From a virus, in the IMG/VR virus record IMGVR_UViG_3300025153_000245, positions 1 through 37,819 of that record: 37,819 nucleotides of DNA; one strand, given 5' to 3'. Position numbers and translations under genes: made by a program. Positions 5,943 through 37,819 of the stretch are shown here, one piece after another (positions within the stretch are counted from its first letter, which is position 1; every line of letters starts with the position of its first letter). The notes under the pieces are model-generated. The model was not told the DNA's origin and did not search any database. It was given only the letters and a program-made list of their open reading frames with translations.

Positions 5943-6073
5943 GCAAGATATTAAGATGGTTTTTCGCCCTGATTTTAGCTGTTTCGGTGCTTATCGCACT
6001 TCCACTCACCGGCCTGGTGCTCTGTTTCATCTGGCTAATTAACATCCACGATGAGACGATACGGCGAGTTTAA
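5939..6073 (+). CDS. Single-pass membrane microprotein
   Basis: A 44-residue open frame that starts inside the DUF3164 stop (ATGA) and encodes a basic N-terminus (MSKILRWF), one long hydrophobic segment at about residues 7-34, and a short charged tail. It is probably an inner-membrane protein with the N-terminus in the cytoplasm. Early phage membrane microproteins often act on host processes such as superinfection. Nothing in the sequence says which. Confidence 0.5.
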   Translation: MSKILRWFFALILAVSVLIALPLTGLVLCFIWLINIHDETIRRV

Positions 6074-6182
6074 CCATGAGATTTGGCGGATCTGCCAAAA
6101 CTGTGGGTACTACTACGATTTGAGAATGAGTTCCATGTGCTTCAAATGTAAATACGACAATAAAGATGGATATAGTAATTGA
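6051..6182 (+). CDS. Small zinc-finger-like protein (two CxxC)
   Basis: A 43-residue open frame, MRRYGEFNHEIWRICQNCGY then YYDLRMSSMCFKCKYDN. It has two CxxC pairs (ICQNC and MCFKC) about 14 residues apart, the usual spacing of a zinc ribbon or zinc knuckle. It overlaps the membrane microprotein by 23 bases and the HAD gene by 17. Such overlaps are normal in this operon. The paired cysteines argue against chance. It may bind nucleic acid or a host protein. Confidence 0.6.
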   Translation: MRRYGEFNHEIWRICQNCGYYYDLRMSSMCFKCKYDNKDGYSN

Positions 6183-6600
6183 CTTCGATGGGACTTGTGT
6201 AGCGCACGAGTTCCCACAAGTTGGCCGGAATATCGGCGCTCAACCGGTTTTGATTGACCTGATCCGGGCTGGTCATCGCCTGATTCTGTCAACGATGCGT
6301 AGCGATGTATCCGAAGCACAAAGCGAACTGCCGGAAATTCATTGTAAGCCTGGAATGTACCTTACTGAGGCGCTGGAATGGTTCAAAGTGCAGGGGATTG
6401 ACCTTTATGGTATCCAGGTCAACCCAACACAAGACAGGTTTACAACAAGTCCCAAATGCTACGGGCACCTATACATTGATGATGCCGCGCTAGGGATTCC
6501 CCTGGTGTACCCCTTGAAAGGGAAACCTTACGTGTACTGGAAAAAGGTCCGGTTACTGCTTGAAGAAAGAGGACTATTGAATATTACAGAAAAGTGTTAA
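6166..6600 (+). CDS. HAD-superfamily hydrolase-like protein
   Basis: A 144-residue compact HAD phosphatase-like protein. Motif I is DFDGT with D6 and D8. A motif II-like Thr is in LSTMRS at about 41-46. The acidic motif IV is YIDDAALG with D105 and D106. There is no large cap domain, which resembles small polynucleotide-phosphatase or nucleotidase types. Substrate cannot be read from the sequence. It directly precedes the retroelement target genes, with 14 bases before the first ATG. Confidence 0.72.
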   Translation: MDIVIDFDGTCVAHEFPQVGRNIGAQPVLIDLIRAGHRLILSTMRSDVSEAQSELPEIHCKPGMYLTEALEWFKVQGIDLYGIQVNPTQDRFTTSPKCYGHLYIDDAALGIPLVYPLKGKPYVYWKKVRLLLEERGLLNITEKC

Positions 6601-6614
6601 ACCAACCAAAACCA

Positions 6615-7028
6615 ATGAATACAAATACCGAAACCCGTCCAGTCACTGAGATTGTTACCACCTACGAAGCCGCCTGTGAGCTGACAGGAACTACACCTCT
6701 AACGATTGAGGACTTTGCAAAGCACCCAGCAAAACACCGTGATTCGGATTTTGCCTCGCACCAGATTAACGTCATTGCCGATGCGCTCAATGGCCCGGAC
6801 GAGTTTGACTATGCCAACCATAACCAGAACAAGTATTACCCTTGGTTTTGGTGGAAGCAGGATCGTGCTGGTGGTCCCGGTTTCTCGTCCCGCGGTTACG
6901 GCTGCGATTTCTCGGACTCGTGCGTCGGTGCCCGCCACTCGTTTCGCACCAGGGAGCTTGCAAAGTTCGCCGGGACTCAGTTTGAAGATATTTACAACCG
7001 CTTTTTATCCCCGTATAGGCCACTATGA
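6615..7028 (+). CDS. DGR variable protein 1
   Basis: First of three paralogous target proteins of the retroelement (137 residues). After a helical N-terminus comes YYPWFWW, then GGPGFS, the variable segment and a conserved ending FRTRELAKFAGTQFEDIYNR. The variable repeat VR1 covers residues 85-107. Diversified residues include S, R, G, G, C, F, D and C at positions where the template has adenine codons. The fold is likely the C-type-lectin-like type common in DGR targets, but this is inferred. No signal peptide is present, so it is cytosolic or virion-borne. The start at ATG 6615 is preferred over an upstream GTG at 6594 inside the HAD gene. Its stop overlaps gene 2 in ATGA. Confidence 0.85.
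   Translation: MNTNTETRPVTEIVTTYEAACELTGTTPLTIEDFAKHPAKHRDSDFASHQINVIADALNGPDEFDYANHNQNKYYPWFWWKQDRAGGPGFSSRGYGCDFSDSCVGARHSFRTRELAKFAGTQFEDIYNRFLSPYRPL
6867..6935 (+). repeat. Variable repeat 1 (VR1)
   Basis: Aligns without gaps to the template at 7928-7996. It differs at 16 of the template's 19 adenines and at no other base. Four of those (the 5' AGT to GGT and, at the 3' end, AGT to GGT and CAA to CGC) are shared by all three VRs and look fixed. The remaining 12 fall in a core of 15 adenines. Confidence 0.9.
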
Positions 7029-7513
7029 AGACAGTAGAAATAAGTATCGAAAACGCCCGCACAGCCTATAATGAAGCCGGTGCGGAAATTAAACAAACGC
7101 TTTTAAAGCTGATCGGTCCAAAGGTTTTATTTGATAAAATCACCGACGTGGTGAAGTCCTACGAGGATGCTTGCCAGATTGAGGGAAGTAAGCCGCTGAC
7201 GATTGAAAATTTTGCATTCCTGCCAAAAAAGGATCGTCAGCACCATTTTGCCGCGCATCAATTAATCGTAATTAACCGTGTGCTAAATGAGGGTTGGGAG
7301 CCTGATTACAGCAACGGCAGCGAGTACAAATACTACCCCTATTTCATTTGGAACAAGGATGCTGCTGGTGGTCCCGGTTTCTCGTACATCGTTTACGACT
7401 GCGGTAACTCGGACTCGTTCGTCGGTGCCCGCCTCGTTTTTAAATCGTCTGATCTGGCGAAATACGCCGGGAATCAATTTCTATCTATCTACAACCAATA
7501 CTTACAACTTTGA
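7025..7513 (+). CDS. DGR variable protein 2
   Basis: Second retroelement target, 162 residues, with an N-terminal helical extension of about 40 residues not seen in the other two. The shared module begins near residue 45 (VVKSYEDACQIEGSKPLTIE) and runs through YYPYF, GGPGFS, VR2 (residues 113-137) and the ending FKSSDLAKYAGNQFLSIYNQ. The ATG overlaps the gene 1 stop by four bases (ATGA), so translation is probably coupled. Like its paralogues it has no secretion signal and is not near tail genes. Binding partner unknown. Confidence 0.85.
   Translation: MKTVEISIENARTAYNEAGAEIKQTLLKLIGPKVLFDKITDVVKSYEDACQIEGSKPLTIENFAFLPKKDRQHHFAAHQLIVINRVLNEGWEPDYSNGSEYKYYPYFIWNKDAAGGPGFSYIVYDCGNSDSFVGARLVFKSSDLAKYAGNQFLSIYNQYLQL
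7361..7435 (+). repeat. Variable repeat 2 (VR2)
   Basis: Aligns without gaps to 7925-7999. All differences are at template adenines: 12 of 19 up to base 7996, plus two more in the last codon. One AAC codon of the template is unchanged, showing partial mutagenesis. Confidence 0.9.
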
Positions 7514-7515
7514 TC

Positions 7516-7902
7516 ATGGATATCACCGAAAACGTTAAATTTTTTGAAAATGCCTGCGCTGTTGAGGGTATTAATCCAGCGGAAGCCCTGCCGTATGTAC
7601 CGCCTGTAACAGCGGATCAGAGGTCTATCAATGCCTATGCGAAACTGATCATTATAACCAGGGTCTTGAATGAGGGTTGGGTGCCGGACTTCGACGATAG
7701 CGATGAATGGAAGTATTTTCCTTGGTTTTACATGCAGTCCGTTGCTGCTGGTGGTCCCGGTTTCTCGTACCACGTTTTCAGCTGCGATGTCTCGCACTCG
7801 TTCGTCGGTGCCCGCCTCGCGTTCAAGTCTGAGGAGCTGGCAGAATACGCCGCCAATCAGTTTCTGGACATTTATGAGGACTTCATGGTAATTCCGAAGT
7901 AA
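7516..7902 (+). CDS. DGR variable protein 3
   Basis: Third retroelement target, 128 residues. It has the same module: helical N-terminus, KYFPWFYM, GGPGFS, VR3 at residues 76-100, then FKSEELAEYAANQFLDIYED. The ATG at 7516 follows the gene 2 stop by two bases; an in-frame TTG at 7510 is a less likely start. It lies closest to the template repeat, 19 bases downstream of its stop. The short CCTTGGTT shared by this gene and the DNA before the template suggests the template arose from a copy of such a gene. Confidence 0.85.
   Translation: MDITENVKFFENACAVEGINPAEALPYVPPVTADQRSINAYAKLIIITRVLNEGWVPDFDDSDEWKYFPWFYMQSVAAGGPGFSYHVFSCDVSHSFVGARLAFKSEELAEYAANQFLDIYEDFMVIPK
7741..7815 (+). repeat. Variable repeat 3 (VR3)
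   Basis: Aligns without gaps to the template from 7922 to 7996 with 14 substitutions, all at adenines. Identity of non-adenine bases extends slightly further left than in VR1 and VR2. The paired changes AAC to GTC and AAC to TTC alter both adenines of a codon. Confidence 0.9.
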
Positions 7903-7921
7903 AGACCCTTGGTTGTGTGCT

Positions 7922-7999
7922 GTTGCTGCTGGTAGTCCCGGTTTCTCGTACAACGATTACAACTACGATAACTCGAACTCGAACGTCAGTGCCCAAATA
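7922..7999 (+). repeat. Template repeat (TR) of the diversity-generating retroelement
   Basis: Non-coding template between target gene 3 and the reverse transcriptase. Its core holds five AAC codons, plus TAC and GAT codons, in the target reading frame, so adenine mutagenesis changes mainly first and second codon positions. All three VRs read GTCGGTGCCCGC where the TR has GTCAGTGCCCAA. This fixed 3' difference is what an IMH versus IMH* pair would look like, which would make transfer one-way. In the gene frame TAA follows at 8003, so the copy is not translated through. The rest of the gap, 8000-8118, holds no gene I can support. Confidence 0.92.
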
Positions 8000-8118
8000 T
8001 GTTAAGGAAGATTTTGACAGCACAGACCCTGCCCACATGGCAAAAAATGACCTCAAACTTTTAAAGCGCGTTAGTATCTCATTTTGATTGAAAATACGAG
8101 CTGCAAAACATAGGCCCA

Positions 8119-9120
8119 ATGAAACGAATAGGAAATTTATACAATAGCATCTGCAGCCTGGATAATTTGATCCTGGCTGACAAGTTGGCAAGCAAAGGTA
8201 AAGGCCGTCAGATCGGTGTAAAGCAGCACATGGCTAACCAGGAAGCAAACCTGCAGGCGCTACATGAAATGTTAACGGCAAAAACCTTCAAAACCGGGGC
8301 TTACAAAACGTTCATCATTTTTGAACCAAAACGACGCGAGATTTTCAGGTTGCCATATTTCCCTGATCGCATTGTACACCACGCTATTATGAATGTATTG
8401 GAGCCTATCTGGGTGCCAATGTTCACCGCTGATACTTACAGTTGCATCAAAGGCCGTGGTGTTCATTCTGCTGGCAGGAAGGTAAAAGAAGCACTCAAAA
8501 ACGAACCGGAAACACGGTATTGTCTCAAACTGGATGTGCAAAAATTCTACCCGAGCGTTGATCATGACGTTTTAAAGCAGATCATTCGTAAGAAGATTAA
8601 GGACGCGGACCTGCTCAACCTGCTGGATTCTATTATTGACAGTTCGGACGGCTTACCAATTGGCAATTATCTCAGTCAATACCTGGCTAATATGTACATG
8701 ACCTATTTTGACCACTGGCTCAAAGAAGTGGTGAAGGTTAAGTATTACTTCCGTTACTGTGATGACATGGTGATACTAGCAAGCAACAAACCTGAGCTGC
8801 ACCAGATATTAGCCCAAATTAGAGCGTATCTATCCAATGAACTAAAACTAACCATCAAAGGCAATTATCAGATTTTTCCGGTCCAAAGCCGGGGTAACGA
8901 CTTTGTAGGCTACAAGTTTTTCCACACCCACACACTACTTAGAAAATCTATCAAACAAAGTTTTGCCAGAGCAATTGCCAGGCGTAAAGGGCTTGAAACA
9001 ATTGCTGCCTATAACGGGTGGGCAAAGCACGCAAACACTCTCCATTTAATAAAAAAGCTGTGCAATGACAATAAAGAACTTTCGAGACTTCGGGATAAGA
9101 ACCGAATACAAAGGGTTTGA
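8119..9120 (+). CDS. DGR reverse transcriptase
   Basis: Copies the template RNA with infidelity at adenines and supplies cDNA to overwrite the variable repeats. The 333-residue protein has palm motifs in order: LKLDVQKFYPSV with catalytic D139; LPIGNYLSQ with IGNxxSQ at 181-187, the DGR-type replacement for the QGxxxSP of group II intron enzymes; and FRYCDD with YCDD at 213-216. The thumb motif FVGYKF is at about 262-267. There is no maturase or endonuclease domain, as usual for DGR enzymes. The start at ATG 8119 fits the family's short N-terminus. The last 56 bases overlap the next gene. No Avd homologue is visible next to it. Confidence 0.93.
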   Translation: MKRIGNLYNSICSLDNLILADKLASKGKGRQIGVKQHMANQEANLQALHEMLTAKTFKTGAYKTFIIFEPKRREIFRLPYFPDRIVHHAIMNVLEPIWVPMFTADTYSCIKGRGVHSAGRKVKEALKNEPETRYCLKLDVQKFYPSVDHDVLKQIIRKKIKDADLLNLLDSIIDSSDGLPIGNYLSQYLANMYMTYFDHWLKEVVKVKYYFRYCDDMVILASNKPELHQILAQIRAYLSNELKLTIKGNYQIFPVQSRGNDFVGYKFFHTHTLLRKSIKQSFARAIARRKGLETIAAYNGWAKHANTLHLIKKLCNDNKELSRLRDKNRIQRV

Positions 9121-9373
9121 AGGTGAGAAGATCCACCTAAAAAAAGTGCTCAACAAGGAAATTGAAGTTCACCGGTGTAAGATTGAAAAATCAAAGTTTC
9201 CCGGTTCTGGTAATGGAAATAGACTGGATATGGAAATTGTGGTTGACGGCGTAAAAAGGGTTCTATGGACTAGCTCAGTTGTCTTACAAGAAATGATCGA
9301 AAAGCTTCCAACAAATGCCTTTCCATTTCGGACGACCATAGTAGAAGAAAATCAAAGACTTGAATTCACCTAA
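9065..9373 (+). CDS. Unknown protein overlapping the reverse transcriptase
   Basis: A 102-residue protein that starts 56 bases inside the reverse transcriptase gene in another frame. It contains alternating beta strands with conserved-looking stretches: GFEGEKIHLKKVLNKEIEVH, a Gly-rich turn, LDMEIVVDGVKRVLW and FPFRTTIVEENQRLEF. It reads like a small beta-barrel, perhaps OB-like. It bears no resemblance to the four-helix Avd protein. The overlap suggests co-expression with the enzyme, so a retroelement accessory role is possible. A plain early phage protein is the alternative. Confidence 0.6.
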   Translation: MTIKNFRDFGIRTEYKGFEGEKIHLKKVLNKEIEVHRCKIEKSKFPGSGNGNRLDMEIVVDGVKRVLWTSSVVLQEMIEKLPTNAFPFRTTIVEENQRLEFT

Positions 9374-9385
9374 AAACGAAATATC

Positions 9386-9805
9386 ATGCAGCGATTAAAA
9401 TCACAAAATCAACGGTTTCACGGATTAATCGGCAAGATGAAGATTGACCCGGACGAGAAGAAAGCAATAGTACGGGAAGTGTCGGCTGGCCGCTGCACTT
9501 CCTCCAAGGATCTGACCGCCCACGAAATGCAAAAGGCAATAGATATCCTGGAAGGTGGCATGAATAGCAGCATTGCAAGGATGCAGGCCAAAGCGAGGGC
9601 CATTGCTAATGACCTGGGCATTTTGAAGGTTATAGGTCAGAAAATGGATTATAGTGCCCTGGATACATTTGTGCAAAAAACTTGCAAAAAGCCTAGCATG
9701 TTCAAGCTTGAATACAACGAGCTGGTAGTGCTGGTTACCGCGCTGGAACGCTGGCGGGATTACAGGACAAACAAGATGGTTAACCAGGCTTTAAATCCCG
9801 TTTAA
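9386..9805 (+). CDS. gemA: GemA-like (Mu gp16, DUF1018) early regulator
   Basis: A 139-residue homologue of the Mu gp16/GemA family, reported to affect host gene expression and DNA supercoiling. The recognisable N-terminus has FHGLIGKMKIDPDEKKAIVR, then SSKDLTAHEMQKAIDIL, a family signature. It is predicted all-helical. It sits late in the early operon as in Mu-like phages and directly abuts the next gene. The family call is good; the detailed function is known only for Mu. Confidence 0.75.
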   Translation: MQRLKSQNQRFHGLIGKMKIDPDEKKAIVREVSAGRCTSSKDLTAHEMQKAIDILEGGMNSSIARMQAKARAIANDLGILKVIGQKMDYSALDTFVQKTCKKPSMFKLEYNELVVLVTALERWRDYRTNKMVNQALNPV

Positions 9806-10921: not shown

Positions 10922-15223
<4,302 letters not shown>

Positions 15224-34568: not shown

Positions 34569-36275
34569 CTAATTTGGAACTATCTGATAGCCAAGCTCCT
34601 TAAAATTTGATATAGCATCAATAGAATAAAGCTGTAATTTATGAATGGATGCCAATCTGGGACGGGATTCTATCTCCCAAAGGCCGGTTATACCAGCGAT
34701 TGCTTCGGTAAACCCATGGGTGTCTGTGGAATGTGCATCGGCAATAATTATTTCGTCATGTGACAATGCATCAAGTACGTATGGGGCTTCCCGTTCTCCG
34801 GCACTGAAAACCGTCGAATATATTAGTTGACCGGCTTCGTCCAGATGGGAATAAATTGTAATCCCTTTTCCATCTCCAAAATATTTAAAAGAAGCAGAAG
34901 CCCTCAGTGAAGCAACAGAGACATCAAATTTTTGCCCATCGCTTCCAGTATGAACAAATTCGGATTGGTAACGGAACAGGTCAATGATTGGCAACTGATT
35001 GCTTTGTTTTAAAATCAGGTCATTGGCTTGCAACGTCAATTCAGGTGAGAAATAATGAGTAGCTACCGATTCAAGCGAATCAACAGTGACATCTTTAGAA
35101 ATAAGCCCCATTTTTCTTATGCCAATATTTTCACCATAGCCGATAATAGCGGCATAAAATAGCCTGTCATCCGGACGTTTAGGTACATAGTCTACTGTTT
35201 TGTATTGAAAAGCTGCCAGGAAACCGGTAAGCTCATTGACCTGGCGTAGAACTTCCAGGACTGAAATTACTTTTCGTTGGGGATATAGGGTTATGTGGCT
35301 AACTTCCTTTTCCTCTTTTGCCCGATAACGGTGTAAATGCCACTGCCCGTCTTTATCAAAATACACGAACTGATTTGTCTTGATTCCCGCATTAACGTAA
35401 TCAAATTGTTGATTAAGGGTCTGGTTCAGGTTTAATAAAAACTTACCTGCCGAAAGGCAATGTTCCATGCATGCCTGCTTCAATAGGGTTTCTCTTTGCT
35501 TGGCCCACGTCTGTTTATCTATTAAATATTGGTCAAATGAACGATATTCATAAGAAGATAAAACATTCAGAGATCCGGCTTTCACATGTAAGACAATCTC
35601 CTTGAATAATAGGGCTTTATATAGTGAAATTCTGAGTTTTCCGGTGTCAGTGTAAATATTGTTGCGGTCGGCAATAGAGAGAAAATCAAGTGGCAATTTT
35701 GTATTTTGAGCTATTTCTCCTTGCTTACCCTGATAATAACCCACCGCTTGCCATATATCGGTCTGCGAGGAACTTTCATCAAAAACCAGACATTGCAGCA
35801 ATGCCGAAACCCTGTTTTGAAGATAAATACTTTCCTTCTCGAGTTGGCCATACAATTCCTGGCCTTGCTGTACTTTTTGCTGGGTAGCTTGAAGCGAAAG
35901 CACATGCTGATGGTCTTCATCAAGGGCAACAGGGTTAATTCTTTTGCGGGTAATGATATTTTTGATTTGTGAAACCTTATTACCGTCATCGAGGGAATCA
36001 TCATTGGCTATTTTTTCAATCATACCCAACACGTCAATATGCACTTCGTTGCGTTTGGTTACCTGCCCAACCAGGGATGCCGTTTGGTAGCGCTGGCGGT
36101 AGAGTTGCTCTTTGATCCGATTTTCGCAATTGTTCAGACAGCTACTCAGTGTGTTGAGAAGCGTTAATATCAATGCATCACCCAGGCTTAAATACTGGTG
36201 TATGACAAAAGCAATTAAAAGAAGGTACTTATCATTGCCCCGCCGAGCCATATTCGCACTTCTGTTATCAAGCAC
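34569..36275 (-). pseudogene. Tn3 transposase, central fragment
   Basis: Second piece, 568 codons of core sequence, including YLLLIAFVIHQYLSLGDALI, the YFDKDGQWHLHRYRAKEEKE region and the catalytic-site motif DTHGFTEAIAGITGLWEIES. It is bounded on both sides by TAG codons (36363-36365 before it, 34569-34571 after it). The frame is the same in all three pieces, whose sum of about 1,010 codons with the joining residues is the usual length of Tn3 transposases. Confidence 0.85.
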
Positions 36276-37216: not shown

Positions 37217-37819
37217 ATGTTAGTTGGCTAAGCAAGGGTATCAACCAAAGACCAAAATCTGGAACTCCAACTGGACGCACTTAAAAAAGACGGGTGTGAA
37301 ATCATTTTTCAGGAAAAAGCATCGGGCATCAAAGTAGATCGTCCGGAGCTGGAAAAGATGATAGCCCAGCTCCGGAAGGGGGATGTAGTTTGTATTTATA
37401 AACTCGATCGTTTAGGCCGTTCACTGAAAAACCTGCTGAACCTGGTTGCCGATTTTGAAAAAAGAGAAGTTGGGCTTCGTAGCCTGACGGATTCCATTGA
37501 CACAACCACACCCCAAGGCCGGCTGATACTAAATATCTTCGCATCCCTTGAAGAGTTCGAGCGGGACCTGATCCGGGAAAGGACTAAGGCAGGTTTGGAA
37601 GCTGCCCGAGCAAGGGGCAGAAAGGGAGGCAGAAGAAGTGGGCTTTCTGCAGAAGCACAGAAAAAATCGATGTTAGCCGAGATGTATTATAAAGAAGAAA
37701 AGTTGGGTGTGGACGAAATTGCAAAAACTATTGGTGTTTCAAAAATGACACTTTATAAGTATTTACGCTTACGTGGTGTTCAAATCAGTGCTTATCAAAG
37801 CAAAATAGAAAAAACCTAA
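37217..37819 (+). pseudogene. Tn3 resolvase (serine recombinase), nonsense at codon 5
   Basis: A 200-codon serine resolvase that would resolve cointegrates at res. From ATG 37217 it reads MLVG-stop-ARVSTKDQNLELQLDA. The TAA at 37229-37231 replaces the conserved Tyr of GYARVST, so translation ends four residues before the catalytic Ser. The rest is intact: KLDRLGRSLKNLL, SIDTTTPQGRLILNIFASLE, RERTKAGLEAARARGRKGGR and a C-terminal HTH (VDEIAKTIGVSKMTLYKYL). A product from the next ATG (37358) would lack the catalytic Ser. Confidence 0.85.

Follow-up and report, generated by a model that had tools for sequence, protein, structure and literature searches.

A diversity-generating retroelement with three small target genes in a Mu-like Bacteroidota phage

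In phages, diversity-generating retroelements (DGRs) are known chiefly as a means of switching receptors, acting on tail fibres (PMC8144416). The BPP-1 DGR has a single tail target, mtd, followed by the template repeat (TR) and the reverse transcriptase (RT), with Avd encoded upstream of the TR. Differences between its TR and variable repeat (VR) are adenine-specific, fixed differences of the IMH/IMH* type are present, and the TR-RT spacer folds and recruits both RT and Avd (PMC12875486). Hankyphage, a transposable Mu-like phage of Bacteroides, carries a very large C-type-lectin ORF that ends in its only VR, together with a small ORF likened to Avd (PMC6199706). In the DGRs of crAss-like phages (LMMB, PMC7290462; Zeta group, PMC12386605) a tail-protein target lies beside the RT, and those of the archaeal viruses ANMV-1 and vir525 have Mtd-like tail targets. 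For ANMV-1, Avd has been proposed for another ORF, and the accessible text of that report does not discuss the gene downstream of the RT (PMC4372165).

The DNA analysed here (the window) is a whole virus record of 37.8 kb. Its genes indicate a Mu-like phage: a Mu-type transposase C-terminus; an AAA protein in the MuB position; a Mu portal; a tape measure; and a GemA-like protein. A collagen-repeat protein of 1433 aa (10922-15223, - strand) is probably the phage fibre. Toward the other end, a Tn3-family transposase (DDE_Tnp_Tn3, 2e-45; 34569-36275) and a resolvase truncated where the window stops (37358-37819) suggest that the right end of the record is Tn3-type transposon or host DNA.

The cassette of interest occupies 6615-9373, all on the + strand: three tandem paralogous genes, a TR, an RT gene, and a small overlapping gene, here termed gene X. 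By the defining features tested, the element is a DGR, a reading that can be held with high confidence, and the window is a transposable (Mu-like) Bacteroidota phage carrying an active-looking DGR. The features are these.

6615..7028, + strand: target gene 1, ORF of 137 aa (PHROG_11581, 2.6e-17), VR near the C-terminus
6866..6936, + strand: VR1, changed at 12 of 15 mutable template adenines
7025..7513, + strand: target gene 2, ORF of 162 aa (PHROG_11581, 9e-29), its start overlapping the stop of target gene 1
7360..7435, + strand: VR2, changed at 8 of 15 mutable template adenines
7516..7902, + strand: target gene 3, ORF of 128 aa (PHROG_11581, 3e-25)
7741..7818, + strand: VR3, changed at 10 of 15 mutable template adenines
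7922..7999, + strand: TR, with mutable adenines at 7950-7983 and fixed differences at edge adenines 7934, 7988 and 7995-7996
7985..7994, + strand: IMH*-like 3' end of the TR, GTCAGTGCCC, named by analogy with BPP-1
6924-6933, 7421-7430 and 7804-7813: GTCGGTGCCC, the VR counterpart of TR GTCAGTGCCC
8018..8118, + strand: structured spacer RNA between TR and RT, from covariation in 49 sequences
8119..9120, + strand: DGR reverse transcriptase of 333 aa, from profile, structure-relative and tree evidence
9065..9373, + strand: gene X, 102 aa, pI 9.1 (PHROG_19665), a candidate accessory protein with a predicted OB-fold, overlapping the end of the RT gene

The locus shares with BPP-1 the target-TR-RT order, adenine-specific TR-VR differences, IMH/IMH*-type fixed differences, the RT family, and the structured TR-RT spacer. 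It differs in having three small early-region targets, no Avd, and gene X after the RT. Hankyphage, too, is Mu-like and transposable, infects Bacteroidota and has a DGR; the window has small tandem targets instead of one very large ORF. The crAss-like phages provide the closest annotated RTs (46-57% identical), and one of them (cr115, locus L013) has the spacer RNA; gene X, however, was not found in the crAss-like records searched. The RTs of ANMV-1 and vir525 are basal in the clade to which the window RT belongs, and a gene X homologue directly follows them.

Three variable repeats, one template

The TR-VR alignment was anchored on CCCGGTTTCTCGT (TR 7937; VRs 6876, 7373 and 7756). An earlier sequence-only reading had counted 16, 12 and 14 TR-VR differences up to TR base 7996, all on 19 template adenines and none elsewhere; recomputation gives identical figures. 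Adenine-only differences of this kind would arise by chance with probabilities of 1e-13, 2e-10 and 1e-12 (hypergeometric, over the longest matched stretches, 71-78 nt). The three tandem paralogous VR-bearing genes, the single TR and the DGR-type RT that it described are likewise all present. Neither strand of the window has a further VR-like site: the closest remaining candidate carries at least 27 non-adenine mismatches. Each VR lies inside a coding gene near its C-terminus, in all three ORFs, and across the family the VR ends about 22-29 codons before the stop. Stem-loops following the VRs, as in BPP-1, were also sought: inverted repeats are slightly in excess of shuffled sequence, and none in the window is convincing.

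Comparison with relatives separates the 19 adenines into two classes. In 141 family TR-VR pairs, the edge adenines differ in 96-100% of cases, almost always to a single base: to G on the 5' side; and AGC to GGC and CAC to CGC on the 3' side. The IMH*-like 3' site shows the fixed A-to-G change in 127 of 132 pairs. Interior adenines (offsets -39 to -5) are changed in 28-86% of the 141 pairs, as a rule to all three bases. This near-constant change to one base marks the edge adenines as fixed IMH/IMH*-type differences, not mutagenesis events. By analogy with IMH and IMH* in BPP-1, these sites look like the bounds of the exchanged segment. Thus 15 interior adenines (7950-7983) stand as mutagenesis sites, whereas the remainder of the 19, at the edges, do not.

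Within this mutable core, none of the 32 non-adenine positions is changed in any of the three VRs (P 9e-9, 2e-5 and 6e-7). The pattern extends to the family: in 167 TR-VR pairs, 2479 of 3649 template adenines are changed, compared with 42 of 9716 other sites, the latter a lower bound because the pair finder favours adenine mismatches.

The reverse transcriptase

The RT contains the motifs LPIGNYLSQ and YCDD and matches PHROG_1423 at 4e-124. Its best solved relative is 8ub7, a 328-aa reverse transcriptase chain (2e-47); the best group II intron RT scores 3e-18. In a tree of 55 rows, whose bootstrap support is not fully settled, it groups with the RT of Dyadobacter sp. Leaf189, to which it is 71% identical. 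Both belong to a supported clade of RTs from Bacteroidota phages, separate from BPP-1 and from Bacteroidota DGR RTs that are more distant and in part accompanied by Avd. Profile, solved relative and tree therefore all group it with DGR RTs, and not with those of retrons or group II introns.

Two features of crAss-like RTs deserve separate mention. Read under table 11, the RT genes of cr115 (L013, 449-1471) and cr53 (L196, 4001-5023) are interrupted by in-frame stops; relatives have Q at several of these positions, which would fit recoding of a stop codon. Those of cr55 and LMMB (L195, 3917-5242; L198, 3001-4296) encode RTs 431-441 aa long, of which about 80-90 aa form a C-terminal extension. 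These extensions were considered as fused gene X and are not claimed as such (hhalign probability 20% and 0.1%).

Relatives and natural activity

Scans of IMG/VR and of genome contigs, based on the RT, the targets and gene X, yielded about 130 loci. Their layout is strikingly constant: a target of about 155 aa; a target of about 135 aa; TR; RT; and gene X. Among 99 loci with at least one small VR-carrying target, two targets are present in 80, one in 12 (some of these cut by contig ends), and three in 7 (6 distinct loci after removal of one duplicate, the window included). Three targets on one template, described earlier as uncommon, are indeed a minority variant. Multiple targets as such are not rare here: with two the standard number, several genes per template are the normal state of this family. 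For comparison, two targets have been reported for about 13% of DGRs, with up to eight (PMC10743442), and several target genes for 235 of 948 (PMC6642488). Some family targets lie from several kb to 38 kb from the cassette (L043, 635-1054, the same as L130, 680-1099; L185; L186), suggesting targets in trans.

Near-identical relatives provide the cleanest test of activity, unbiased in that the comparison is independent of how TR-VR pairs were found. Between L082 and L083, 9 of the 45 adenine sites in the VRs are changed; the 115 other VR sites and the 1924 sites outside are all unchanged. Between L088 and L099, the corresponding figures are 12 of 44, 0 of 125, and 1 of 1687. VR variation among related genomes thus exists and falls almost only at template adenines, which indicates that the DGR family is active in nature. 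Moreover, only one of the two targets changed in each pair, which argues for independent retrohoming per target.

Activity of the window's own DGR is judged from these relatives, as none retrieved was close enough to reveal change in the phage itself. Its VRs might instead be remnants of past activity in a decayed element. Such decay is very improbable: the RT is intact with YCDD, the target frames are intact, the VR cores are free of non-adenine changes, and relatives are active. An active-looking element remains the preferred description.

The sequence-only reading had proposed a complete DGR with adenine-specific mutagenic retrohoming, and had named three observations that would speak against it: non-adenine substitutions in the VR cores; an RT grouping with retrons or group II introns; and invariant VRs among relatives. 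None of these was encountered, and the proposal is supported. That account ended at 9120, and both gene X and the structured spacer RNA were absent from it.

A structured spacer RNA

The spacer of about 100 nt between TR and RT forms 12 pairs in three helices: hairpin P1 (about 8030-8042); stem P2 (about 8065-8071 with 8096-8102); and an inner P3. Across the alignment, 93.7% of cells are paired, compared with 76.4% in shuffled and 34-43% in slid controls, and two-sided changes occur in 110 cells versus 30 in shuffled (49 sequences). The inner loop of P2, (A/G)GUA facing GAA, may be read from its sequence as resembling a bulged-G motif.

A covariance model, R1, built with the window among its sequences, scores 67 bits at 8020-8116. 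It also finds the RNA beside the TR in the genome loci outside its building set, among them the RT-less locus L139 and crAss-like L013; it has no match in the distant loci L160-L183. Rfam gives no match in 6000-9500 at E up to 1. Given that the BPP-1 spacer recruits RT and Avd, a like role for the family spacer RNA is probable by analogy.

Gene X, a candidate accessory protein

An Avd or HRDC accessory gene is not required of all DGRs, so the lack of one leaves DGR membership unaffected. In the NCBIfam search, neither occurs among 124 ORFs flanking RTs in 27 loci, including the window; as a positive control, the same search finds three Avd and two RecQ/HRDC-type proteins near distant RTs.

Wherever a locus is informative, gene X is linked to a DGR. 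In searches starting from gene X, a DGR RT lies within 2 kb in 27 of 27 viral loci, and directly upstream in 21 of 23 genome loci. The remaining two are L139, which has TR, target and RNA without an RT, and L144, which is cut by a contig end. Five of 395 evenly sampled Bacteroidota genomes carry gene X, each time adjacent to such an RT, and a sixth RT has a more diverged copy immediately upstream; none was found near the distant DGR RTs examined in this sample. A tblastn search of 50,697 phage records returned only two archaeal viruses, in which gene X adjoins the DGR RT. The distance from the RT is about 350 nt in L034 and L036 and 1.6 kb in L021, and in three loci gene X is fused in frame to the RT C-terminus (L041, 4032-5318; L042, 367-1653; L126, 4837-6300).

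The predicted structure (AF2, pLDDT 91.9) aligns best in VIA with OB-folds: 2cqa (Z 6.7); PriB (Z 5.4); and the PRD1 SSB P12 (Z 5.3 over 80 residues). These Z values, all below 8, are modest and show no function. Foldseek returned nothing below 0.1 (best E 0.18). The family's median pI of 8.9 is compatible with nucleic-acid binding.

Not every such RT needs gene X: searches found no copy in crAss-like cr53 and cr115, Versailles or L007, all inside the RT clade, where it was probably lost or replaced. These absences, along with the weak structural matches, would fit a phage gene cotranscribed by chance that is no DGR component. This is improbable, however, as gene X was never seen apart from a DGR in the searches made, is fused to the RT in three loci, also occurs in the archaeal viruses whose RTs are basal in the clade, and is retained with TR and spacer RNA in RT-less L139. 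Gene X is thus likely to be a DGR accessory protein, and we infer that it stands in for Avd.

Where the targets act

The targets, of 128-162 aa, belong to PHROG_11581, a family with no annotated function. Their helical N-terminal part is modelled confidently, the VR region poorly (pLDDT about 53). No hydrophobic or membrane segment occurs in 80 family targets. Neither targets nor gene X gave anything significant against Pfam, NCBIfam or PADLOC. A PDB sequence search with target 2 produced chance matches only; Foldseek and VIA found no solved relative of the target model, and a viral structure library matched only uncharacterised phage proteins. There is accordingly no fold match for a C-type lectin in the VR domain, at the low pLDDT of that region.

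Upstream of the cassettes, tallies include DUF3164, ATPase, primase, helicase, RecT and methyltransferases; downstream, methyltransferases, HNH and terminase. Tail families are absent from the top 25 lists. Target homologues distant from any RT adjoin either NinB and a replisome organizer, or methyltransferase and Lar-like genes. These DNA-metabolism neighbourhoods favour an intracellular role over a virion role; the targets, which are encoded in the early/DNA-metabolism region and not in the tail region, have about an even chance of acting inside the cell.

Phage DGR targets are mostly tail proteins (PMC8144416), and the targets could instead be virion proteins (short tail or decoration) that bind receptors and switch tropism as in BPP-1, while being encoded outside the tail module. 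In crAss-like phages and Versailles, which have related RTs, tail targets adjoin the RT, with lysis genes downstream in cr53/cr115 and Versailles, and one RT-distant family member in phage Versailles is annotated as a tail protein. In L139, a tail-fibre-like protein of 528 aa ends in a VR of the same type, with the GSRLCF end, so this C-terminus can also serve on a virion. A virion role is nonetheless rather unlikely here: the cassette sits among early and DNA-metabolism genes, as do the RT-distant homologues; the targets are small; and the window's own collagen-like fibre has no VR. (L139, 3729-6303, carries that protein with TR, spacer RNA and gene X, with no RT in the whole 5.5-Mb assembly; it is either an RT-less DGR remnant or a trans-acting DGR.)

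One form of intracellular role would be protection of the lysogen, through superinfection exclusion or the detection of rival phages, recognition being kept up to date by the DGR as in conflict-system DGRs of multicellular bacteria. Such conflict-linked DGRs have been described (PMC10907252, PMC7159879), and the cassette is found in sequenced Bacteroidota genomes, with Dyadobacter sp. Leaf189 and Niastella caeni among the relatives, presumably in prophages. No effector domain was found on the targets, however, and PADLOC detects nothing, leaving this specific form an unlikely one; the broader intracellular role remains the favoured reading.

A working model

In the proposed mechanism, the TR and structured spacer would be transcribed, and the RT, probably with the gene X protein in place of Avd, would bind the spacer RNA. 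The RT would then copy the TR with errors opposite adenines, and the cDNA would replace the core of one of the three VRs at a time, between the fixed template-target differences at either end. The fixed edge positions suggest these exchange limits, and relatives with a single changed target suggest replacement of one VR at a time. The products would be variants of three small soluble proteins, each conserved and helical in its N-terminal part and hypervariable in a patch at the C-terminus. With roughly equal chances either way, these variants may act inside the cell, for example by binding varying host or competitor proteins, as suggested by the early-region position of the targets.

In the open literature that was searched, no DGR seems to combine gene X, a covarying spacer, and small early-region targets; the apparent novelty is provisional, as the supplementary tables of earlier surveys lay outside that scope. 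A broader scenario can be offered tentatively, at somewhat less than even probability: one DGR clade spans archaeal viruses and Bacteroidota phages, and in it an OB-fold protein, free or fused to the RT, partners that enzyme in place of Avd; and in the Bacteroidota phages, the targets shifted from tail fibres to pairs or triplets of small cytosolic proteins, hypervariable intracellular binders directed against host defences or used for takeover.

This widespread DGR family with small early-region targets raises a testable question: what is gained from hypervariable proteins inside the cell? In addition, the linkage of gene X and the covariation of the spacer RNA suggest that such mutagenesis can be run without Avd, which would help both in understanding its mechanism and in developing targeted mutagenesis tools.
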